Shown one piece after another: positions 1 to 34,592 of a stretch of DNA of 64,000 bases. The notes below the pieces were generated by a model. The model worked only from the letters and a program-made list of their open reading frames with translations, did no database searches and had not been told where the DNA came from. The position numbers and the translations under genes were made by a program. Each line of letters opens with the position of its first letter. Positions within the stretch are counted from its first letter, which is position 1. Source of the DNA: Thraustochytrium sp. TN22 (Eukaryota > Sar > Bigyra > Thraustochytrida > Thraustochytriidae); NCBI GenBank assembly GCA_013306675.1, contig JABLUY010000147.1, positions 31,354-95,353 of the forward strand, written 5' to 3'.

Positions 1-3000
1 GGTCCGCATCATCTCGGCCAAGCAGCGCGCGCAGCAACCGCAGGACCAGCAGCAGCTTCTTCACGCACAGCAACACGCTCAGAACCAGGCACTCCGGGCG
101 CAGTCCGCCCGGGTCGCCGACCCGGCGGCGCGTGCCGCGCTCGCTGGTAGGCCTGGTGTCCAGGGCGCGGCTCGGCCGCAGCAGCAGCACGCGTCCGCGG
201 CGCAGCAGCAGCAGCAGCACGCGTGGCAGCAGCAGCAGCAGCTTCTTCAGATGCAGCAGCAGCAGCAGCAGCAGCATGCTGCGGCGACCCAGCGCCGCCG
301 CCAGCCGCAGCACTTGTTGCAGCAACAGCAGCAACATCAACAACAACACCCTCAGACTCAGGAGGAGCTGGAGAGGTTGCGCGCCAAGTATCCGAACGCC
401 ATTGACCCGACCAAGGCGCGTCACTGCAAGTCGGGCACCGGACCATCTCTGCCCTTTAGCATGACCCGCGCCGACGTCGAGAGCCACATTCAGTCGCTGC
501 GCGTCGAGGGCATTCAGCCCAATGTGCGCCCCCTGCTCCGCAAGCTCATTGAGCACAAGTCCAACAAGGGCATTTACAACCAGCCTGTGGACTGGAAGGC
601 CATGAACATCCCGGACTATCCCAAGATCATCACCAACCCGATGGATCTTGGCACCATCCGCAAGCGTCTCGATACCTCGTATTACAAGACGCTCAAGCAA
701 TTTCGCGACGACGTCGAGCTCACCTTCAAAAACGCCATGACCTTCAATCCTCCCGAGAACGAGTACCATACGCGTGCCCACGACCTGCTCAAGGTCGCGC
801 AGAAGGAATTCCCAGCCATTCAGAACAAAATCGAGCGCAACGGTCGACCCCGGAACCAGGACTGCCAGCTCTGCCGCCAGGCTGTCTGCGAGCAGTGCCC
901 GCTTTGCGAGCGCGGCTGTATCCCCTTTCAGCCCAAGCTCCTCTTCTGCTCCGGCACCTGCGGCAAGCGCATCCAGCCCAACAGCGTCTACTACACCGGC
1001 GTCGGCTACAACTACTGCTGGTGCAGCGACTGCTACGACAAGGCGCGCGGGGGCGTGCTGGCCGTCAACAACCAGAGCTACAACAAGGAGGATCTCCACA
1101 AGAAGAAGAACAACGAGCTCTACGGCGAGCCCTGGGTCTCATGCGACAAGTGCGAGCGCTGGGTGCACCAGGTCTGTGCTCTCTTCAACTCGCGCAAGAA
1201 CAGCCTCAACTCGTCGCAGGACTACATCTGCCCGCTCTGTCTCATCAAGGAGTCCAAGGCCGGTGAACAGGAGCGCGCGGCCAAGGCCAAGGCCGGCGCC
1301 CCCGCCCTCGAGGACGACAAGAACGCGGCCGCCTCCGCGGCTGCCGCAAACGCCAACACCCAGGCCGTCGGCGACGATGCTGCTCGTGCGAAGGGAAAGT
1401 ACGAGCACTTTGTTCTGCCGGCCGGCAAGCGCGTCCCGAGTGCCAAGGAGCTCGACCAGACGCGCATGGGTGTCTTCCTGGAGAAGTGGCTTCGCAAGAG
1501 CATCGACGATTTTCGCGCCCGCGAGCATACCAAGGGCAGCGAGGCCGCGTTGCGCGACCTGGGGCCCGCCTCGGACAAGCTCCACGTGCGTGTCCTCTCC
1601 AACTTTGACGAGTCCTGCAAGGTCAAGCCTTTTGTGAAGCGCCTCATCCCCGAGTACCCGGATGAGTTCCCTTTCCGCTCGCGCTGCATCTTTTGCTTCC
1701 AGGAGCTCGATGGCGTCGATGTCCTATTCTTCGCCATGTTCGTCCAGGAGTACGGCTCCGACAGCCCGGCGCCCAACAGCCGCAAGGTCTACATTGCCTA
1801 TCTCGACTCCGTCTACTACTTCCAGCCGCGCCGCATGCGCACCGCCATCTACCACGAGCTTCTCCTTGGCTACCTGGAGTATATGCGCCGCGACGGCATG
1901 ACGTCGGCCTACATTTGGGCCTGCCCGCCGCCCAACAAGCGCGACGACTACATCATCCACTGCCACCCGGAGGACCAGCGCGTGCAGACTGCCGAGCGCC
2001 TGCGCAAGTGGTACCACGACATGATTGAGGTGGGCTCCAAGTCCCGCATCTTCATGGGCTCCTGTGCCATGTTCGAGGAGCACTTTGAGGCATCGGCGCG
2101 CGCCAACAACAAGAAGAAGTCCAAGGCCAAGAAGCGCTCCGGCAAGGCCAAGTCCAAGGCCAAGTCCAAGAGCAGCAAGAAGGGCAAGAAGTCCTCGCGC
2201 AAGAGCTCCTCCGCGCGCCGCATCTCAGGCGCCGCTGCTGCCGCCAAGGCCGCCTCGGCGGCCAAGGCGGAGGCCAAGGCTGCCGCCGAGGCCGAGGCGG
2301 CTGCCGCCGCTGCGTCTGCGTCCGGCAAGGCTGGCAAGTCAGCCGAGGACGACGGCAAGGACGGCGATGAAGACAACAACGACGGCGACGACGCGCTCGG
2401 TCTGCTCGCTGACATGCCCGACATGGCTGGGGATGGCGGCGAGGACGACGAGGACGACGACGAGGAGGACGACGAGGCCAACACTGAGGCGCGCGCCACG
2501 CCTGAGGATGGAGCACCGCTCTCGGATGCTGACAAGGCCAAGGCCGTGGCCGAGGCCGCCGGCGTCACCTTCATCACGCCGGCCAATGGCGTGCGCGCCG
2601 GAGACGATCGCATGCTGGCCGCCGACCTTGAGCGCCGCAAGAAGAACAAGCTCGCTGCCGCCGGCAACCTGCCGTACTTTGAGGGAGACTACTGGCCGCA
2701 GGAAGCGGAGGAGCTTGCCAAGGAACGCGCCCGTCAGAAGAAGAAGGAAGACGACGACTCCACGGGCGGCCGCAGCAAGCGCAAGCGCCGCCGCAGTGCT
2801 GGCGAGGACGCCTCTGGAGAGGCGGCCACTGCAGGCGAGGAGGCCGACCCCGCCAAGGCCGGCTCCGACCTTGCCGTCGAGCTGAGCGAGGAGGAGGCCG
2901 CGGAGGCGCGCGTGCAGCTCATGCAGCGCCTTGCCCAGCAGCTCGAGGTCATGAAGGACGACTTCCTTGTCGTCAAGATGGCCCACGAGTGCTCGCGCTG

Positions 3001-5218
3001 CGGCATCTACCTGCTGCGCGGTCGCTGGGAGTGCCGCCACCCGTCCTGCCTCGAGGACTCAGGCTTCAACAAGTCTTGCCCCTTTGCGCTCTGCAACAGC
3101 TGTTACGCCCTCGAAGTCAAGCGCCCCGCCGAGCAGCAGCACGGTGGCGGGTGCGTTGCCGACGGCGACGCCGGCAAGCCAAAGCCCGCCACGGAGGAGG
3201 CGGACAAGGTCGCTGGCAAGGACCAAACTGTGGTCGATGTCAACGCTGACTTCAAGCGCAAGGAGAAGGAGCGCCTCGAGAAGGAGCGCCAGGACAAGGC
3301 CAAGCGCGAGGCGGACGCCAAGGCCAAGGAGGATGCCAGGAATGGCACTGGCGACTCGGATCCCAAGCGCGTCAAGCTCGAGGCTGGCGCCGCCGATGTC
3401 AAGCAGGAGCAGAATGGCGAGGCTGGCCCCAAGCCCGCCACTGTTGTCGAGGTCAAGAAGGAGGAGCAGGCCAGTGCTGAAACCAAGCCTGCGTCTACGA
3501 AGCGTAGCGCTGCGGACGCGGGCGCGGACGGAGACGGAGACGGAGGCGTCTCTGGCAAGCCTGTGGATGCAGGAGCCGGAGCATTGGAGCCTTCGACGAA
3601 ACGCCAGAAGCTCGAGAATGGCGACGCCAAGCCGGCGGCAAACGGCAGCAACAAAGACGAGGCCACGCCGTCGGAAGCCAAGGATGGCGAAAAGCCGGAT
3701 GCTACTGCCGAGCCCACGGCAGACGCCACAGAGGCCAAGGCCGATACCGATGCCAAGGCCGAGGCCGAGGCGGCCGCCCCGTCGGTGTCTGCGGAGGAGC
3801 CCGCACCAGCTGCGACGGCGAACGGCGATGAGACAAAGCCCGCTGAGACGACGGTGAAGGACGGTATCAAGAAGGAGCAGGTGGAAGGAGAGGAGAAGGA
3901 GGAGAAGACGACGGGTGGCGCCGACAAGACCGTCAACAAGGTGAAGACGGAGCAAAAGGAAGAGAAGGAGGCTGAGGAACAGAAGAAGAACAAGGTCGAC
4001 GAGGACCCCGAGGCCAAGAAGAAGCGGCTTGCTGAGGAGCGCAAGCGCAAGGAGGCCGAGGATGCGCGCAAGAGGGAGGAGGAGCTGGCCGAATGGGACA
4101 AGGTCCCGCTCGGCTGCACGCGCGAACCGATTCCCAAGACCGCCGAGGACCACATCCTGCATTACGTGGACGAGAATTTGCCGGTGCGCACGCCGGACCG
4201 CGACAAGATAATCAAGAACCACCTGCTTGAGTCGCGGCATGCCTTCCTCTCCCTGTGCACCGGCAACCGGTACCAGTTTGACCAGCAGCGTCGCGCCAAG
4301 CACTCAACCATGATGGTCCTTTACCACCTGCACAACCCGGACGCACCCGCGCACCTGTACACCTGCTTCGAGTGCCACTCGGACATTCTCTCTGGGAAGC
4401 GCTACCACTGCGATGTGTGCAATGGTGGCGACTACGATATCTGCGTGCACTGCAAGCGTCACAACAGCCACGATCATACGCTCACACCGTTTGTTGTCAC
4501 GCGCGGTGTGCAAGCCGAGACCTCGGAGGCGCAGCGCATGCAGCGCGTGCAGGAGATGCAGCGCGCCCGACAGCACTCGCTTGCGCTCTTCCTTGAGGCA
4601 CTCGTCCACTCCTCTCAGTGCAACGATCTGCAGTGCAAGAAGGCGCCCTGCAAGAAGATGAAGGAGCTCCTCAAGCACCGCATGACGTGCGAGGTGCGCG
4701 TGCGCGGCGGTTGTGAGATTTGCCGCCGTGTGCTCTGCCTTGTGCAGATGCATGCGCGTACTTGCAACCTGCCCAACTGCCGTGTCCCTCACTGCGAGGA
4801 CCTCAAGGTCCACATCACCAAGCACAAACAGCAGCAGATGCTGCTGTACCGCCGGCAGCAACAGCAACAACAGCAACCATCGCAGCAACAGCTCACGCAG
4901 CCCGAGCTCGTGCAGCAACACGCTGTCCAGCAGCGCCAACTTGCGCTTCAGCAGCAGCAGCAGCAGCAGCAGCCAACATCGCGCGGCCGAGGCCGAGGCG
5001 CCGCTGCTCGCGCCGCGCATGTTGGCGCCGCGGCGCAGGCTGTGGCCCAGGCTGGCCAACAGATTCAGGCCACCGTCGTGGAGGGCTCCGGCGGCACACG
5101 CCTCAAGATTCGGCCGACCAACATTCGGCCGACCAACGCGAACACCACCGGCGGCGCCGCGGCGCCAGGATCCGCACCGCGTTCCTCGGCACGTGGCCAG
5201 CGCTCCGCGCGCAGGTAA
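1..5218 (+). CDS. p300/CBP-type histone acetyltransferase (KAT11), 5' end outside window
   Basis: Nuclear transcriptional co-activator that would acetylate histone lysines. The frame is already open at base 2 and the first ATG (251) sits inside a poly-Gln stretch, so the true start lies upstream. Counting from that ATG (1655 residues): bromodomain about 89-185; CBP-style Cys-rich RING/PHD block about 206-334, with many CxxC pairs; KAT11 catalytic domain about 384-607, including the run VYIAYLDSVYYFQPR; a long Lys/Ala and acidic linker; one ZZ-like zinc finger about 910-957 and a second about 1367-1417; TAZ2-type finger about 1445-1527 (LFLEALVHSSQC start); then a second poly-Gln tail. The order bromodomain-PHD-KAT11-ZZ-TAZ2 is that of animal p300/CBP; I see no KIX or TAZ1 in this part. 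Stop TAA. Family assignment is firm; targets are not readable. Confidence 0.93.
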   Translation, partial: VRIISAKQRAQQPQDQQQLLHAQQHAQNQALRAQSARVADPAARAALAGRPGVQGAARPQQQHASAAQQQQQHAWQQQQQLLQMQQQQQQQHAAATQRRRQPQHLLQQQQQHQQQHPQTQEELERLRAKYPNAIDPTKARHCKSGTGPSLPFSMTRADVESHIQSLRVEGIQPNVRPLLRKLIEHKSNKGIYNQPVDWKAMNIPDYPKIITNPMDLGTIRKRLDTSYYKTLKQFRDDVELTFKNAMTFNPPENEYHTRAHDLLKVAQKEFPAIQNKIERNGRPRNQDCQLCRQAVCEQCPLCERGCIPFQPKLLFCSGTCGKRIQPNSVYYTGVGYNYCWCSDCYDKARGGVLAVNNQSYNKEDLHKKKNNELYGEPWVSCDKCERWVHQVCALFNSRKNSLNSSQDYICPLCLIKESKAGEQERAAKAKAGAPALEDDKNAAASAAAANANTQAVGDDAARAKGKYEHFVLPAGKRVPSAKELDQTRMGVFLEKWLRKSIDDFRAREHTKGSEAALRDLGPASDKLHVRVLSNFDESCKVKPFVKRLIPEYPDEFPFRSRCIFCFQELDGVDVLFFAMFVQEYGSDSPAPNSRKVYIAYLDSVYYFQPRRMRTAIYHELLLGYLEYMRRDGMTSAYIWACPPPNKRDDYIIHCHPEDQRVQTAERLRKWYHDMIEVGSKSRIFMGSCAMFEEHFEASARANNKKKSKAKKRSGKAKSKAKSKSSKKGKKSSRKSSSARRISGAAAAAKAASAAKAEAKAAAEAEAAAAAASASGKAGKSAEDDGKDGDEDNNDGDDALGLLADMPDMAGDGGEDDEDDDEEDDEANTEARATPEDGAPLSDADKAKAVAEAAGVTFITPANGVRAGDDRMLAADLERRKKNKLAAAGNLPYFEGDYWPQEAEELAKERARQKKKEDDDSTGGRSKRKRRRSAGEDASGEAATAGEEADPAKAGSDLAVELSEEEAAEARVQLMQRLAQQLEVMKDDFLVVKMAHECSRCGIYLLRGRWECRHPSCLEDSGFNKSCPFALCNSCYALEVKRPAEQQHGGGCVADGDAGKPKPATEEADKVAGKDQTVVDVNADFKRKEKERLEKERQDKAKREADAKAKEDARNGTGDSDPKRVKLEAGAADVKQEQNGEAGPKPATVVEVKKEEQASAETKPASTKRSAADAGADGDGDGGVSGKPVDAGAGALEPSTKRQKLENGDAKPAANGSNKDEATPSEAKDGEKPDATAEPTADATEAKADTDAKAEAEAAAPSVSAEEPAPAATANGDETKPAETTVKDGIKKEQVEGEEKEEKTTGGADKTVNKVKTEQKEEKEAEEQKKNKVDEDPEAKKKRLAEERKRKEAEDARKREEELAEWDKVPLGCTREPIPKTAEDHILHYVDENLPVRTPDRDKIIKNHLLESRHAFLSLCTGNRYQFDQQRRAKHSTMMVLYHLHNPDAPAHLYTCFECHSDILSGKRYHCDVCNGGDYDICVHCKRHNSHDHTLTPFVVTRGVQAETSEAQRMQRVQEMQRARQHSLALFLEALVHSSQCNDLQCKKAPCKKMKELLKHRMTCEVRVRGGCEICRRVLCLVQMHARTCNLPNCRVPHCEDLKVHITKHKQQQMLLYRRQQQQQQQPSQQQLTQPELVQQHAVQQRQLALQQQQQQQQPTSRGRGRGAAARAAHVGAAAQAVAQAGQQIQATVVEGSGGTRLKIRPTNIRPTNANTTGGAAAPGSAPRSSARGQRSARR

Positions 5219-26788: not shown

Positions 26789-27508
26789 CTCGCTTGCGGC
26801 TCGTGCGCGCCGACCGCGGCGAGGTGGCGGCGACCTGCAGACGCGCTCGCGCGACTACACGTCCGTCCACGCGCGCCCGAGCGGCCGCTCTAGGCCTAGC
26901 CCGCCTTTGTCGCGAGCGGCAGGCGAGCGATGAAGTTCTGGTGTTTCCCCTTTCGAGCAGCAGAGGCTGGCTACCAGCAGGGCTTGCTCGGCTACGCTTG
27001 CACTCTAGCTCGCTAGCTAGCTAGCGAGCCACCCCGCGAAAACCTGAGGCGAGCCTCCTGTTCAGCCCAGACGCGCTCTCGGCTTGGCTCATCCCGCCGC
27101 AGCTCATCTCGCCGCGCCGCGCGGACTCGCCTGCGCTGCTCTTCTGCTTGCAGCGCGACCTGCAGTCATCCCAGCCATCGGCAGGCGCTGCAAGGGGCCG
27201 TCAAACGAAACCCTGCGGGGTCTCGAGCTGAGGTCTCCTACGCGGCGAGCACAGCGGCAACAGCGAGCGCGAAGGGCCGCACGGGGGGGAGGCATCGCGC
27301 TCCAAGCCTGCTTGGGTGCAGCAGGCCATGTCCTGCACGGACAGTGAGAGCTTTGCGGTTTTGCAGCTCCTGGTCAGCAAGCGTCCGAGGTTTGTGCCGG
27401 TGGGCTTGTGGTCGCTCAGGGGCGAGCGCTCAGGCACATGGGATGAAGAGACAGACAGATAGACAGACAGGCAGACAGACAAACGACAAAAAAAAAAGGA
27501 GGGCTCCT
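26789..27508. other. gene-free stretch left of the palindromic element
   Basis: No gene seen. 27000-27030 has CTAG/GCTAGC repeats. 27449-27484 is an imperfect (AGAC) microsatellite, followed by a 10-A run at 27487-27496. These lie just before the 45-bp sequence that is duplicated in the palindrome centre. Confidence 0.5.
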
Positions 27509-27553
27509 ATCCCAATCCCATCGCCCTAGACGGAGTTTAATCAGGATAGCCAT
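27509..27553 (+). repeat. 45-bp left-flank block F, found inverted at the palindrome centre
   Basis: This 45-bp block starts ATCCCAATCCC and ends GGATAGCCAT, directly abutting the element. Its exact reverse complement fills the spacer between the two arms (29850-29894). Its first nine bases (ATCCCAATC) equal the first nine bases of the element's outer end at 27554. Its last six (AGCCAT) recur directly after the element at 32191-32196. Confidence 0.85.
27548..27553 (+). repeat. left AGCCAT, candidate target-site duplication
   Basis: AGCCAT directly precedes the element's outer left end and is repeated directly after its outer right end (32191-32196). The shared string GGATAGCCAT (27544-27553 and 32187-32196) is longer but overlaps the element terminus on the right. 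Confidence 0.5.
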
Positions 27554-29849
27554 ATCCCAATCACACCTCTATGCTTACTCGTATCCGCCTACCACGCGGG
27601 GGTCCCTCGGTGACGCCCGGCACAGGGGGCACTAAAGCGTATTAAGAGGGTACTTTACTCCCGATTTGCTCCAAAAAAGTGGCCTAGAGTCTGGCGAAGT
27701 TAGTTCCGCATTCGATCAAAAACGCAGCGATGGGGCCGAGCTTGAAGAGGCCCACTCGAAGCGACCCAAGGCTCCTGCCCCCTATTCATTTTGGCCGAAG
27801 GCGTGGTGGTTAGGATGAGATGAGCTCGGCAGTTCGCCCAGAGCGGCTTTGGGGGGAGCTCGCGCGCGACTTCGTCGCGGAGCGCGCTGGAGCCGCAGGC
27901 GCTGCGGCGCGCGGCTGCAGGCGGCCCTGGCGGGTGCCTTGTGCCTGCTCTCAGCTCGCACGCCCCTGCCGCAGCGCTTGGACGTGGAGTCGGGCCCGCA
28001 CTGCGACATCATGGCATCGGCGAGGCCTAACCACCGCGTGGAGGACGACAGCGACAGCGACAGCGACAGCGAGTTCGTGCCCCTGGACAAGCGGGACACA
28101 GGGGACGAAGACGAAGAAGGAGAGGAGCTTGGCGCCGAGGATGCTCGTGCTGAGGCCGCTGCGCAGCAAGACTTCGAAGACATACTTGCGTTGGTCGACG
28201 AACCGACGCGTGGTGCGAGTGCATGTTCGAGGTCGGCCTCATTCAGCACAAGACCGTTCCGGGGCTCGCAGTCTCGCCGGATGGAGTCGCTCGCGTCCGG
28301 CTTCCAGGCGCGGAGTGCGACGCATCGTCAGTACTATGCAGCGTCGAGATCAAGACGCGCGTCGCGCCTGGAGGCGCGGTAGACGCACGTATCGTGAGCA
28401 CCCAGATGAACACGTGGGGGACGAGACTTGGTGGAAGGCCATACCTGCCGAGCACCGCGCGCAAGTCTTGCACCAAGCTGTGGTCCTCCAAATCGATCAC
28501 GTGCTCTACGTTGCTGCCAGCACGAGTTCGTGTTTGTACGCCTGCCTCGTTGAAGTGCCTCCGGACGCCCGGCTCGCCATGGAGCGCGCTCTGAAACCGT
28601 GGGCGGACAAGCTCACGACATGGGCGCACCAGAGCATCGACAGCGGGTGCGCCGCCCAAGCCACCTGCCATCTTCGGCGAGGAGGAGGGGGCGGTGCTGA
28701 GCTCGCACTTCCGGCTGTGGCGCGCCATGCGCAAGCTTGTCGCTCTGAAGGGGCCCATGCGGCCCGTGCATGTCATCAAGTGCTTACCGCAGGAGCTATA
28801 CAACGTCGCAAAGGGCGGCGTCGACGGAAGCACACAGTACGTGGAGCAGATCACCAACACGCAGTGCATGAATCTGAGCTGCGACCAGAACATCGCGTTG
28901 CGCACGTACAAGCAGCTCGTTGTCAACGCCATCGTGGTCTACCGCTACTTACAGGCTGCGAGGAAGAGCAACCTCGAAGACAGCGACGGGCTAAAGGCCC
29001 TCCGCGACAAGGTGAACCGCTCTGAAGCGCTCAGCACTGTCTCGTTCCGCCTCACTGTCGACATGGTCCGTCACGTCTACAGGAGCAGGCAGCTCGATAC
29101 GGCGCAGGTGGAGTTCAACATGCAGCCAAGCATGCCCAAGCCCACTGGGCTCACCAGGGAAGCGGCGAGGGACCTCGTGACCGCCGGTAAGCGCAAGCGA
29201 ACCCCCGAGTTGCAGAAGTTCTTCAACCACGGCCAAGCCCGCGACATCCGCCTCGATGCCGCACTGCAACATGACTCAGAGGCAGCGGGAAAGGCATCCT
29301 TCAACGCCAACAACAAGAGGATTCCCGCCAAGCGGCTCTGCGTCATCTGCGGCAAGCAAACGCACCGTCGTTGCACCATCTGCGGTGTGCCTCTGCACGT
29401 GTTCATGAGAAAGAATGAACGCACAACCTGCTTTTCCAAGTGGCACACGCGCGTGCGCGTCGAGCCTCACGAAGGCTTCAAGAAGCGCAAGACAAACGTC
29501 AACGGAACACCTTCGCCCATTTGCCTCGATCATGTCGATTCGAGCAGCGCCAGTGCCTCGTCCGGTACCCCTACAGCGCAGAGCAGGAACGACCACGTAG
29601 CCCAAGCCAGCTACACCGACACCCCATCAAGCCATAGTTCAAGATCCTCTCGCAGCAGCCTCAGCACGAGTCCATCGTGCCCTTGATGCAGCCCAAGTTG
29701 GCCTCAGCATCCGCACAGGCCAGTCGGAAGTGACCAACACTTTACGCTTCCATACAAACCCAGTAGTTGAAAGTTCCAAAAATGATTAGAATCATGATAG
29801 CAACAGGTCAGTCGAGCGCAAGCAGGAGAGCCGATTTACTAGGGATAAT
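27554..29849 (+). repeat. left arm of palindrome (2296 bp)
   Basis: Outer end ATCCCAATCACACC; inner end CTAGGGATAAT. It contains a gene-free leader to about 28010, the broken nuclease-transposase gene 28011-29686, and a lower-GC tail 29687-29849 with a small hairpin ATGATTAGAATCAT. Confidence 0.88.
28011..29686 (+). pseudogene. YqaJ-nuclease/piggyBac-C-terminal-half gene, frame-broken (left copy)
   Basis: ATG 28011 opens an acidic N terminus (DDSDSDSDSEF). From about 28205 the meaningful frame shifts: HKTVPGLAVSPDGV followed by SVEIKTRV has the SPDG...ExK signature of YqaJ/lambda-exonuclease-type nucleases. From about 28400 another frame continues with AEHRAQVLHQAVVLQIDHVL, still YqaJ-like. 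From about 28660 the frame returns and reads to TGA 29686: LYNVAKGGVDGSTQ matches the piggyBac YN-x3-GGVD motif (third catalytic Asp), followed by LVVNAIVVYRYLQA and a zinc ribbon CVIC...CTICGVPLH...C...H. The first two piggyBac Asp residues and the N-terminal half of its RNase H fold are not present. The shifts look like indels, but undetected introns cannot be excluded. Likely non-autonomous or dead. Confidence 0.7.
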
Positions 29850-29894
29850 ATGGCTATCCTGATTAAACTCCGTCTAGGGCGATGGGATTGGGAT
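29850..29894. repeat. 45-bp palindrome spacer = inverted copy of left flank
   Basis: Begins ATGGCTATCC and ends GATTGGGAT. It is the exact reverse complement of 27509-27553. The order along the plus strand is therefore F, arm, inverted F, inverted arm: two interlocked inverted repeats. Confidence 0.88.
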
Positions 29895-32190
29895 ATTATC
29901 CCTAGTAAATCGGCTCTCCTGCTTGCGCTCGACTGACCTGTTGCTATCATGATTCTAATCATTTTTGGAACTTTCAACTACTGGGTTTGTATGGAAGCGT
30001 AAAGTGTTGGTCACTTCCGACTGGCCTGTGCGGATGCTGAGGCCAACTTGGGCTGCATCAAGGGCACGATGGACTCGTGCTGAGGCTGCTGCGAGAGGAT
30101 CTTGAACTATGGCTTGATGGGGTGTCGGTGTAGCTGGCTTGGGCTACGTGGTCGTTCCTGCTCTGCGCTGTAGGGGTACCGGACGAGGCACTGGCGCTGC
30201 TCGAATCGACATGATCGAGGCAAATGGGCGAAGGTGTTCCGTTGACGTTTGTCTTGCGCTTCTTGAAGCCTTCGTGAGGCTCGACGCGCACGCGCGTGTG
30301 CCACTTGGAAAAGCAGGTTGTGCGTTCATTCTTTCTCATGAACACGTGCAGAGGCACACCGCAGATGGTGCAACGACGGTGCGTTTGCTTGCCGCAGATG
30401 ACGCAGAGCCGCTTGGCGGGAATCCTCTTGTTGTTGGCGTTGAAGGATGCCTTTCCCGCTGCCTCTGAGTCATGTTGCAGTGCGGCATCGAGGCGGATGT
30501 CGCGGGCTTGGCCGTGGTTGAAGAACTTCTGCAACTCGGGGGTTCGCTTGCGCTTACCGGCGGTCACGAGGTCCCTCGCCGCTTCCCTGGTGAGCCCAGT
30601 GGGCTTGGGCATGCTTGGCTGCATGTTGAACTCCACCTGCGCCGTATCGAGCTGCCTGCTCCTGTAGACGTGACGGACCATGTCGACAGTGAGGCGGAAC
30701 GAGACAGTGCTGAGCGCTTCAGAGCGGTTCACCTTGTCGCGGAGGGCCTTTAGCCCGTCGCTGTCTTCGAGGTTGCTCTTCCTCGCAGCCTGTAAGTAGC
30801 GGTAGACCACGATGGCGTTGACAACGAGCTGCTTGTACGTGCGCAACGCGATGTTCTGGTCGCAGCTCAGATTCATGCACTGCGTGTTGGTGATCTGCTC
30901 CACGTACTGTGTGCTTCCGTCGACGCCGCCCTTTGCGACGTTGTATAGCTCCTGCGGTAAGCACTTGATGACATGCACGGGCCGCATGGGCCCCTTCAGA
31001 GCGACAAGCTTGCGCATGGCGCGCCACAGCCGGAAGTGCGAGCTCAGCACCGCCCCCTCCTCCTCGCCGAAGATGGCAGGTGGCTTGGGCGGCGCACCCG
31101 CTGTCGATGCTCTGGTGCGCCCATGTCGTGAGCTTGTCCGCCCACGGTTTCAGAGCGCGCTCCATGGCGAGCCGGGCGTCCGGAGGCACTTCAACGAGGC
31201 AGGCGTACAAACACGAACTCGTGCTGGCAGCAACGTAGAGCACGTGATCGATTTGGAGGACCACAGCTTGGTGCAAGACTTGCGCGCGGTGCTCGGCAGG
31301 TATGGCCTTCCACCAAGTCTCGTCCCCCACGTGTTCATCTGGGTGCTCACGATACGTGCGTCTACCGCGCCTCCAGGCGCGACGCGCGTCTTGATCTCGA
31401 CGCTGCATAGTACTGACGATGCGTCGCACTCCGCGCCTGGAAGCCGGACGCGAGCGACTCCATCCGGCGAGACTGCGAGCCCCGGAACGGTCTTGTGCTG
31501 AATGAGGCCGACCTCGAACATGCACTCGCACCACGCGTCGGTTCGTCGACCAACGCAAGTATGTCTTCGAAGTCTTGCTGCGCAGCGGCCTCAGCACGAG
31601 CATCCTCGTCGCCAAGCTCCTCTCCTTCTTCGTCTTCGTCCCCTGTGTCCCGCTTGTCCAGGGGCACGAACTCGCTGTCGCTGTCGCTGTCGCTGTCGTC
31701 CTCCACGCGGTGGTTAGGCCTCGCCGATGCCATGATGTCGCAGTGCGGGCCCGACTCCACGTCCAAGCGCTGCGGCAGGGGCGTGCGAGCTGAGAGCAGG
31801 CACAAGGCACCCGCCAGGGCCGCCTGCAGCCGCGCGCCGCAGCGCCTGCGGCTCCAGCGCGCTCCGCGACGAAGTCGCGCGCGAGCTCCCCCCAAAGCCG
31901 CTCTGGGCGAACTGCCGAGCTCATCTCATCCTAACCACCACGCCTTCGGCCAAAATGAATAGGGGGCAGGAGCCTTGGGTCGCTTCGAGTGGGCCTCTTC
32001 AAGCTCGGCCCCATCGCTGCGTTTTTGATCGAATGCGGAACTAACTTCGCCAGACTCTAGGCCACTTTTTTGGAGCAAATCGGGAGTAAAGTACCCTCTT
32101 AATACGCTTTAGTGCCCCCTGTGCCGGGCGTCACCGAGGGACCCCCGCGTGGTAGGCGGATACGAGTAAGCATAGAGGTGTGATTGGGAT
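29895..32190 (-). repeat. right arm of palindrome (2296 bp, inverted)
   Basis: Inverted copy of 27554-29849. The only difference I could see is T at 31609 opposite C at 28135. It ends GATTGGGAT at 32190 and is followed directly by AGCCAT. Confidence 0.88.
30058..31733 (-). pseudogene. YqaJ-nuclease/piggyBac-C-terminal-half gene, frame-broken (right copy)
   Basis: Mirror copy of the gene at 28011-29686, with the same frame breaks at the same places, so the damage predates the duplication. The one visible change is Asp for Ala in the acidic segment (LGDEDARAE here, LGAEDARAE on the left). The piggyBac-like block with GGVDGSTQ and the terminal zinc ribbon lies within 31050-30058. Confidence 0.7.
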
Positions 32191-32196
32191 AGCCAT
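32191..32196 (+). repeat. right AGCCAT, candidate target-site duplication
   Basis: Follows the right outer end of the palindrome and matches 27548-27553. Beyond it the sequence (TCTTTGTACC) is unrelated to the left flank. Confidence 0.5.
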
Positions 32197-32830: not shown

Positions 32831-33845
32831 CGCAGTCAGGCGAGCCTCGCTGACGAGCCTCGGATGAAGCTTGCAGGCTCGCAGGGCCGTCATACTGGCA
32901 ACTGCTGCGCCTCCCAAAGTTGCGTCGAGCAGCTCGCCTCACGGACGAGCCTCGGATGAAGCTTGCAGGCTCGCAGGGCCGTCATACTGGCAACAGCAGC
33001 ATCCGTCAGGAAGGATCGAAGGAATCGAAAGTGGAGGTGGACATCGGGTCCGCCCACGGATTGCTGCGCCTCCCAAAGTTGCGTCGAGCAGCTCGCCTCG
33101 CGGACGAGCCTCGGATGAAGCTTGCAGGCTCGCAGGGCCGTCTTACTGGCAACAGCAGCATCCGTCAGGAAGGATCGAAGGAATCGAAAGTGGAGGTGGA
33201 CATCGGGTCCGCCCACGGATTGCTGCGCCTCCCAAAGTTGCGTCGAGCAGCTCGCCTCGCGGACGAGCCTCGGATGAAGCTTGCAGGCTCGCAGGGCCGT
33301 CTTACTGGCAACAGCAGCATCCGTCAGGAAGGATCGAAGGAATCGAAAGTGGAGGTGGACATCGGGTCCGCCCACGGATTGCTGCGCCTCCCAAAGTTGC
33401 GTCGAGCAGCTCGCCTTGCGGACGAGCCTCGGGAAAGGGAGGCGGACATCGGGTCCGCCCACGGATTGCTGCGCCTCCCAAAGTTGCGTCGAGCAGCTCG
33501 CCTCGCGGACGAGCCTCGGATGAAGCTTGCAGGCTCGCAGGGTCGTCATACTGGCAACTGCTGCGCCTCCCAAAGTTGCGTCGAGCAGCTCGCCTCACGG
33601 ACGAGCCTCGGATGAAGCTTGCAGGTTCGCAGGGCCGTCATACTGGTAACTGCTGCGCCTCCCAAAGTTGCGTCGAGCAGCTCGCCTCGCGGACGAGCCT
33701 CGGATGAAGCTTGCAGGCTCGCAGGGCCGTCTTACTGGCAACAGCAGCATCCGTCAGGAAGGATCGAAGGAATCGAAAGTGGAGGTGGACATCGGGTCCG
33801 CCCATGGATTGCTGCGCCTCCCAAAGTTGCGTCGAGCAGCTCGCG
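32831..33845. repeat. modular satellite: 92-bp unit A with optional 67-bp insert B
   Basis: The string GAGCCTCGG recurs at 32855, 32947, 33106, 33265, 33424, 33511, 33603 and 33695, giving steps of 92, 159, 159, 159, 87, 92 and 92 bp. The 92-bp unit contains GATGAAGCTTGCAGG, GGGCCGTC, ACTGGCAAC, CTCCCAAAGTTGCGTCGAGC and CTCGCCTC. The 159-bp form adds a 67-bp block (from AGCAGCATCCGTCAGGAAGG to TCCGCCCACGGAT). Copies are nearly identical, with a few point changes. Both strands have open frames through it because no unit contains stops in those frames; nothing supports coding. Confidence 0.9.
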
Positions 33846-34592
33846 CATCAGAGTGGTGGTGCAGGTATGCGTAAAGCGAGGTTTGCGCGTAGCCGACGCG
33901 ATTCGCGCCAAGGTAAATGACATGGGCAAGCCACATGTGGTCGCAAAGCTGGAAAAAGGACTCGTTGCGATCCAGGAAAAAGACGACCCCGGCCTCGTGC
34001 AAGAGGTCAAGAACGAGCTCTGTTCCGACCTCCCACACGTAAAGGGCGACGAGTGTGCGCGCTGCGAGTGCCACGCTGCGCAGCAGGATGAATGCAAAGA
34101 TCACGCGCGTGAGCAGGTAGACGAGCTCGCCTCTCCTGAAGAGCGATTCTACGTTCGCGCGGAACCCCACGAACTCTATCGCCTGTACACGAGTGAAGAC
34201 AACGCATGTGTACACGAAGAAGACGACGGTGTCAATGAGGGATGGCTGTCGGGCATGCGAGCAAGCGTGCGCGTTAGTTGCGGAGGACGTGGGCATGGCG
34301 AACTCGTTGGCTGCCAACGAGCAAACACAAGGCGAGATGAGACGTGCAGCCTCCGCGGCATAGTTGCATAACCAAGTCGCCAGCCAGAAGGCGAAAGAGC
34401 CGAACGTACCATGACAAGTATGAGGATGACTATTTGTCTCACGAAGTTGAACTGCAAGCGTTGTCTCTCTGTCACGACCAAGAGCGGCCGACGCTGCCAC
34501 CAACGGGAGGCGCCGCCGCGGCCAGTGCTGGCGCCGCCGTTGGCGAGCCTGTTTAGCTTGCGCGCGAGGGCGGCCACCGGGTCGCGCCGCAT
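33754..34592 (-). CDS. probable two-exon integral membrane protein, unrecognised
   Basis: Possible join of exon 1 34592-34410 (61 codons from ATG) and exon 2 34245-33754; 224 residues. The 164-bp intron has donor ATG|GTACGT and acceptor CCGACAG|CCA and keeps frame; other acceptors are possible. The joined product has hydrophobic stretches FNFVRQIVILILVM, LIDTVVFFVYTCVVFTRV, LVYLLTRVIFAFILLRSVAL and a helix around LVLDLLHEAGVVFFL, suggesting three to four membrane segments. The reading frame runs into the satellite for its last ~30 residues (DARAARRNFGRRS...), so the array either supplies the C terminus or the true end is elsewhere. I do not recognise a family. The exon structure is inference. 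Confidence 0.4.

Follow-up and report, generated by a model that had tools for sequence, protein, structure and literature searches.

The ends of piggyBac transposons begin with CCC, and ISL2EU elements of the PHIS group duplicate 2 bp. In the piggyBac superfamily (PDB 6X67/6X68; piggyBat 9C0F; PF13843), insertion at TTAA creates a 4-bp duplication, and the transposase has a C-terminal cysteine-rich domain and three catalytic aspartates (DDD), of which the third lies in a GGVD-type motif. The RNase-H fold of this enzyme is interrupted between the second and third aspartates (D2 and D3) by a small, three-stranded insertion domain, and the excised ends keep 4 nt of the donor flank as an overhang (PMC7351741). 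A transposase paired with a λ-exonuclease-like nuclease has been described in KolobokE, a DDD/E element with 4-bp duplications (PMC9587614), and in ISL2EU, which also encodes a YqaJ exonuclease (PMC4482050). Self-insertions are known from Drosophila P constructs (PMC4744444) and from piggyBac autointegration (PMC3952818). Here we analyse a palindrome formed by two piggyBac-related elements in the thraustochytrid Thraustochytrium sp. TN22. It lies within a 64,000-nt stretch, hereafter the window, which corresponds to positions 31354-95353 of contig C52 in a 37.9-Mb genome of 453 contigs.

Positions i and 59744-i of the window are complementary throughout 27554-29849 with a single exception (28135 C against 31609 T), confirming the near-perfect palindrome described in an earlier note on this DNA. 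A repeat search of the window returned arms at 27553-29859 and 29885-32191 (2,307 nt each, gap 25 nt). Since the next-best inverted repeat in the window measures only 96 nt at 74% identity and falls within CAG/CTG repeats, a chance origin is out of the question. The apparent spacer is the 41-bp right end of the inner element copy with ATAT on either side (49 bp counting both ATAT); in reverse complement, it reads the same as the 41 bp to the left of the first arm. The layout of the locus is F-A-F'-A', in which the inner element, E, consists of A and F' and the inverted second copy of F and A', with element boundaries at 27511 and 32188.

To represent a nested insertion, we took a solitary copy from contig C396, placed it in inverted orientation at the only ATAT of its own reverse complement and added a 4-bp duplication. 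Of the 4,678 bases of this model, 4,677 are identical to positions 27511-32188 of the window. The earlier note was right in seeing two inverted piggyBac-related copies. The single ATAT of E is located at E2293-2296; the inner copy occupies this site in the outer copy, which leaves 41 bp between it and the outer copy's right end, and the ATAT is duplicated. The one base that does not fit, 28135 C at element position 580, is a private change of the inner copy: all 40 other whole 2,337-bp copies in the retrieved stretches carry an A, and so does the outer arm. The palindrome is therefore almost certainly a non-autonomous, internally deleted 2,337-bp piggyBac-like copy inserted in reverse orientation into the ATAT of a copy of the same family, with duplication of that ATAT. 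The boundaries, the duplication and the sequence fit carry this reading, together with 115 near-identical copies of the main frame and repeated use of the internal site in both orientations. The palindrome itself is an ordinary nested self-insertion and needs no special maintenance.

The earlier note had proposed that the locus, if real, is a larger fold-back composite whose terminal inverted repeats are whole elements, possibly maintained by hairpin replication or gene conversion. The near-perfect arms would fit this idea, as would a nested dimer on C61, described below, whose spacer is inverted between its arms, so that arms can apparently recombine. Nested insertion, however, predicts all bases but one; the identity of the arms needs no upkeep in a family whose 41 whole copies show 19 differences in total from C396; and the single difference between the arms is the private change of the inner copy, left standing by any conversion. 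Nor are long inverted repeats the termini of the usual unit, the 2,337-bp element, whose ends share exactly the first 7 bases only. Hairpin replication and active maintenance are unsupported, and the nested fit together with the private substitution led us to reject a fold-back element and gene conversion, a reading that is exceedingly improbable. The AGCCAT repeats said to flank the palindrome are indeed present on both outer sides, but they are not a target duplication: the left one is part of the right end of the outer copy itself (GGATAGCCAT), and the right one arises where the final AG of the flanking ATAG meets CCAT of the flank. A 6-bp duplication was also ruled out by the delimited units of the family, which have 4-bp duplications.

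The 330-amino-acid main frame of the element has 123 matches in the genome, 115 of them full-length at 98% or more, while the other 8 are diverged or incomplete. Longer relatives account for at least four of the 115 (C33, C81:12334, C109 and C394:154319). Left ends with up to three mismatches occur 120 times, compared with none for a reversed control. In the retrieved stretches, whole 2,337-bp copies were keyed by coordinates and 11 further left ends omitted (nested, cut off or of other length); the 19 differences from C396 in the resulting 41 copies are confined to eight of them and amount to about 2 per 10,000 bases, which indicates a very recent burst of the family. The recent origin suggested for the palindrome is thus borne out, and its arms are near-identical because the family is young.

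When main-frame copies within 6 kb of each other are grouped, the 115 form 88 clusters, 66 of which hold a single copy. By coordinates only, and thus independently of the flanks, six neighbour pairs show the inverted spacing seen in the window and seven a direct spacing. This suggests that palindromes are not visibly depleted, although the numbers are small. Two further pairs of opposite copies, C79:16180/19758 and C426:120004/123582, share a spacing of 3,578 bp; they perhaps reflect a duplicated segment or two haplotypes, a potential source of empty sites.

These counts also bear on the question, raised in the same note, of an assembly artefact, that is, an inverted duplication from fold-back reads or a mis-joined repeat with more than 100 near-identical copies. 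Near-identical 2.3-kb repeats are difficult in short-read assembly. However, the insertion point of the inner copy is an exact ATAT, which is duplicated; fold-back would not leave the 41-bp end of the outer copy alone at the far left; and the genome shows the inverted spacing six times and the direct spacing seven times. The differently flanked composites on C37 and C133 were read through in sequence, as was that on C52, and both flanks of the locus are single-copy in the genome except for short partial matches. We therefore consider an artefact at this locus very improbable.

Applied to other loci, the nested model fits the direct composite on C133 with no mismatch, the direct one on C46 with two and the inverted one on C37 with ten, all within its outer copy. 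Such composites could also have spread as units: a 4,678-bp palindromic composite may have arisen once elsewhere and moved here whole via its outer ends. The six inverted neighbour pairs are compatible with this, and the direct composites on C133 and C46 and the flipped inverted one on C61 have matching outer tetranucleotides, as expected if moved; parts of nested dimers also seem mobile, judging from standalone 2,382-bp units made of an inner copy and an outer end. On the other hand, the two unflipped inverted composites that were read at both outer ends have mismatched outer tetranucleotides (CTAT/ATAG in the window, ATAG/ATAT on C37), and they share no common mark, the window having its private base in the inner copy and C37 its ten differences in the outer one, a weak argument in a nearly invariant family. 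Whole-composite movement is accordingly an unlikely origin for this palindrome.

Several points weigh against nested self-insertion as a complete account of the locus. The flanks of the outer copy differ, with CTAT on the left and ATAG on the right, so its insertion was not a textbook one, and it could not be checked against an empty or rearranged partner site, as the genome contains none for this locus. Transposase would have to come in trans, presumably from longer relatives. Finally, since nested composites could transpose whole, the 13 occupied internal sites counted below are not 13 proven independent events, although the inverted, direct and C61 types are at least separate.

To define the target site, loci L001-L060 were merged to 38 stretches; the first 30 had been ranked by similarity to a query containing F, so nested cases are over-represented. 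Excluding units cut by a stretch end, the units on C233 and the inner copy on C61, 45 units could be read at both ends. Identical flanking tetranucleotides were found in 38 of them (ATAT in 31, ATAG/CTAT in five, ATAA/TTAT in two), and none of the 45 is flanked by TTAA. At the palindrome alone, a duplication of 0 or 2 bp could not be distinguished from one of 4 bp; the matched CTAT/ATAG and ATAA/TTAT units establish 4 bp. Beyond the tetranucleotide, 32 sites outside the family's own ends showed no target consensus, which leaves the internal hot site unexplained by it. Flanking tetranucleotides differ in the remaining seven units. Ordinary mutation over 360 flanking bases at ∼2e-4 per base would give only ∼0.07 changes. 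By analogy with the overhangs of excised piggyBac ends, a retained donor-flank overhang could explain the mismatched duplications; exchange between loci is an alternative source.

By exact patterns, which miss base variants, the internal ATAT of E is empty in 99 cases and occupied on its left (A) side in 13. The density of ATAT is 0.34 per kb in the window outside the element (∼13,000 sites genome-wide) and 1.08 per kb in the retrieved flanks, the latter being inflated by the duplications themselves. At either density, 120 insertions into random ATAT sites should place about one or fewer in copies of E, compared with the 13 seen. This excess of self-insertion may reflect transposase bound close to the ends, or local hops from one copy to a nearby one.

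New mobile units may then arise from nested dimers when an inner and an outer end are paired. Exact junctions were counted 25 times on the F side and 13 times on the A side, which implies about a dozen 41-bp right ends without an A-side partner. Units of 2,382 bp were found without a mismatch in direct order (inner copy plus outer end) on C255 and C111, and as standalone “R-E-R” units with perfect 41-bp inverted ends on C177 and C18. Three of the four, including that on C177, have ATAT on both sides; the unit on C18 has ATAG and ATAT. Joint use of the inner copy's end and the outer end would be the simplest reading of these units, and the direct type could also result from recombinational deletion. 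At C61:70433-75110 (L006, L041 and L042), a dimer is nested at a second internal site, CTAT at E2299, with its spacer inverted: the fit has no mismatch with the spacer flipped and 23 without. The arms therefore apparently recombine, and the 2,382-bp units together with this locus indicate that nested dimers rearrange further. At C189:36816-36880, two F-side junctions lie 45 bp apart, as though the 41-bp right end had been tripled in a row.

The ends of E read CCCAATC...GATTGGG. E is without the protein part that holds the first two catalytic aspartates; the third and the cysteine-rich end lie in an open frame, and upstream of it a YqaJ-like stretch changes frame where 19 bp present in the C394 copy are deleted. 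Longer relatives are located on C394, C81, C109 and C33 (with one TAG), plus one on C239 at 45% identity; of these, the C239 copy and part of the C394 copy were read in sequence. Positions E653-2337 are 98.4% identical to the last 1.7 kb of the C394 copy, whereas no source was found for positions 1-652, of which the retrieved C394 part matches only 20 bases, on the other strand. Among the left ends listed, which in contig order extend to C426, there is none from the longer copies on C33, C81, C109 or C394. In the C394 copy (C394:152100-155494), the nuclease and third-aspartate parts are in different frames, which may reflect a defect, an intron or frameshifting. The C239 relative (C239:12399-16040) has one open frame of 1,213 residues with the order IDDEL (D1), TADRGY (D2), SPDG...VEIK (nuclease), KGGVDG (D3) and cysteine-rich end. 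The protein of the longer relatives resembles a DDD transposase of the piggyBac type that has acquired a λ-exonuclease-like domain between D2 and D3.

Homologues support this architecture. The C239 protein alone as a query found none at E ≤1e-3; a two-row alignment returned five proteins and a five-row alignment one more (P0001-P0006; sources lgn and jgi). When viral contigs were scanned with the alignment of homologues, 78 pattern matches but no relative emerged. The domain order D1-D2-nuclease-D3-Cys is kept in five of the six proteins, P0003 being partial and ending before the third aspartate. In all six full-length rows (C239, P0001, P0002, P0004, P0005 and P0006), [IL]DD[ED]L, TADRGY and K[GC]G[VIL]DG occur in order, the nuclease motif shares one frame with the DDD motifs, and the D1, D2 and D3 aspartates are invariant. 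The same holds for the PD-(D/E)xK residues D610, E629 and K631 of the nuclease and for C959, C962, C970, C973, C991 and H996 (P0002 numbering) of the predicted zinc-binding, cysteine-rich domain.

Profile searches gave a mixed picture. Among the five homologues scanned (P0001-P0005), P0003 and P0005 score 26.0 and 33.9 bits with PF13843 (DDE_Tnp_1_7; cut-off 22.4), and P0001, P0002 and P0004 have no match at E 0.1. The C239 and C394 proteins have no PF13843 match even at E 10; their DDE match is to DDE_Tnp_1, under its cut-off. A genome search with PF13843 found three other loci, none of them from the palindrome's family. These (C398:74214, C16:7745 and C76:33366; L061-L063) score above the cut-off and are more canonical piggyBac relatives. 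For YqaJ (PF09588), C394 (14.1 bits), P0004 and P0005 (13.7 each) remain below the cut-off of 22, C239, P0001 and P0002 have no match, and a genome search returned a single locus, on C78, outside the family. The three best matches of the family profile in PDB are piggyBat (E 0.0027), piggyBac (0.17) and LHK-Exo (0.18), all at the expected places in the protein: residues 514-575 of piggyBat correspond to the cysteine-rich part, and the piggyBac match to the third-aspartate part. With only the piggyBat match below 0.01, this profile similarity is suggestive of kinship with piggyBac.

An AlphaFold2 model of P0002 has an overall mean predicted local distance difference test score (pLDDT) of 48.4 and ten-residue means of 63-94 over residues 581-720, the nuclease. 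With this model, Foldseek returned two matches at E ≤0.001, λ exonuclease 3slp (8.6e-4, TMt 0.60) and LHK-Exo 3sz4 (9.1e-4), so the modelled nuclease domain has the λ exonuclease/YqaJ-type fold. Since the model is poor outside this domain, it lends the transposase fold no structural support.

The family thus resembles piggyBac in its 4-bp duplications, its ends starting with CCC, the order of its DDD residues, the third in a GGVD-type motif, and the C-terminal cysteine-rich domain. It differs in its target (ATAT, also CTAT/ATAG and ATAA/TTAT), in having a λ-exonuclease-like domain between D2 and D3, the interval that in piggyBac holds the small insertion domain (PMC7351741), and in its weak sequence similarity, the genome's own members lacking a PF13843 match. 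Because the defining TTAA target is absent, we term the family piggyBac-related rather than a member of the superfamily. KolobokE has its nuclease downstream of the transposase domain, and Kolobok elements have TTAA targets and 5'-RR ends, compared with the 5'-CC of CCCAATC here (PMC9587614). ISL2EU shares an AT-type target, 5'-AT-3', but encodes YqaJ in a separate open reading frame, whereas here one protein combines both activities' motifs and duplications are 4 bp long (PMC4482050). Like the present family, piggyBac undergoes autointegration at its target tetranucleotide, and a single piggyBac end can suffice for transposition; that work was a HeLa plasmid assay, while our case concerns two genomic copies and one preferred site beside an end (PMC3952818). 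Teratorn is likewise a piggyBac-type element carrying foreign genes, being fused with a herpesvirus, but measures 180 kb and holds a viral gene set (PMC5601938).

In the open literature, with subscription journals and Repbase outside the scope, we found no report of a λ-exonuclease-like nuclease within a piggyBac-type catalytic domain. One paper dealing with both piggyBac and YqaJ filters such domains as transposon-related, and another states that viral domains fuse with transposases and cites the piggyBac-herpesvirus fusion. What is new here is the piggyBac-related variant; the pairing of a DDD/E transposase with a λ-exonuclease-like nuclease is already published for KolobokE and ISL2EU. The features of the locus are compiled in Table 1.

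Table 1. Features of the nested palindrome, in window coordinates.
Feature	Coordinates	Strand
CTAT, left flanking tetranucleotide of the outer copy, unlike the right-hand ATAG	27507-27510	
Right end (41 bp) of the outer (host) copy, starting CCCAATCCCATCG	27511-27551	-
“R-E-R” stretch, 2,382 bp: outer right end, ATAT and inner copy; perfect 41-bp inverted ends	27511-29892	+
ATAT, first copy of the target-site duplication from the inner insertion	27552-27555	
Inner element copy, 2,337 bp, CCCAATCACACC...GATGGGATTGGG	27556-29892	+
YqaJ/λ-exonuclease-like coding stretch of the inner copy (limits approximate)	28208-28640	+
Open frame of the inner copy: third catalytic D (KGGVDG) and C-terminal cysteine-rich domain	28697-29683	+
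ATAT, second copy of the target-site duplication	29893-29896	
Other 2,292 bp of the outer copy	29897-32188	-
Open frame of the outer copy, likewise with third D and cysteine-rich domain	30061-31047	-
ATAG, right flanking tetranucleotide of the outer copy	32189-32192	

To the right of the palindrome lies a tandem array (32844-33862) with periods of 159 bp and 92 bp. Elsewhere in the window, a large gene at 251-5218 encodes polyglutamine and KAT11 acetyltransferase, bromodomain, PHD and TAZ domains, and we take it to be p300/CBP-like. The protein encoded at 16373-17689 matches a Herpes_UL52-type primase (E 2.9e-10) and is presumably the product of a PrimPol-like host gene.

As a tentative wider scenario, to which we give somewhat less than an even chance, a piggyBac-related lineage may have gained a working λ-type exonuclease in the middle of its catalytic domain and switched its target from TTAA to ATAT. 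Self-insertion near an end would then give productive direct and inverted dimers, whose inner and outer ends together form new 2,382-bp elements, some with perfect 41-bp inverted ends, and donor tetranucleotides carried along would produce the mismatched duplications. Near-perfect 2.3-kb palindromes with a short spacer seem to survive in the genome at a frequency similar to that of direct dimers (six against seven). All six full-length homologues conserve the DDD and the PD-(D/E)xK residues of the two active sites. What an exonuclease does within a transposase can therefore be tested directly, and the ATAT target offers a test of how piggyBac-type enzymes read their target tetranucleotide.

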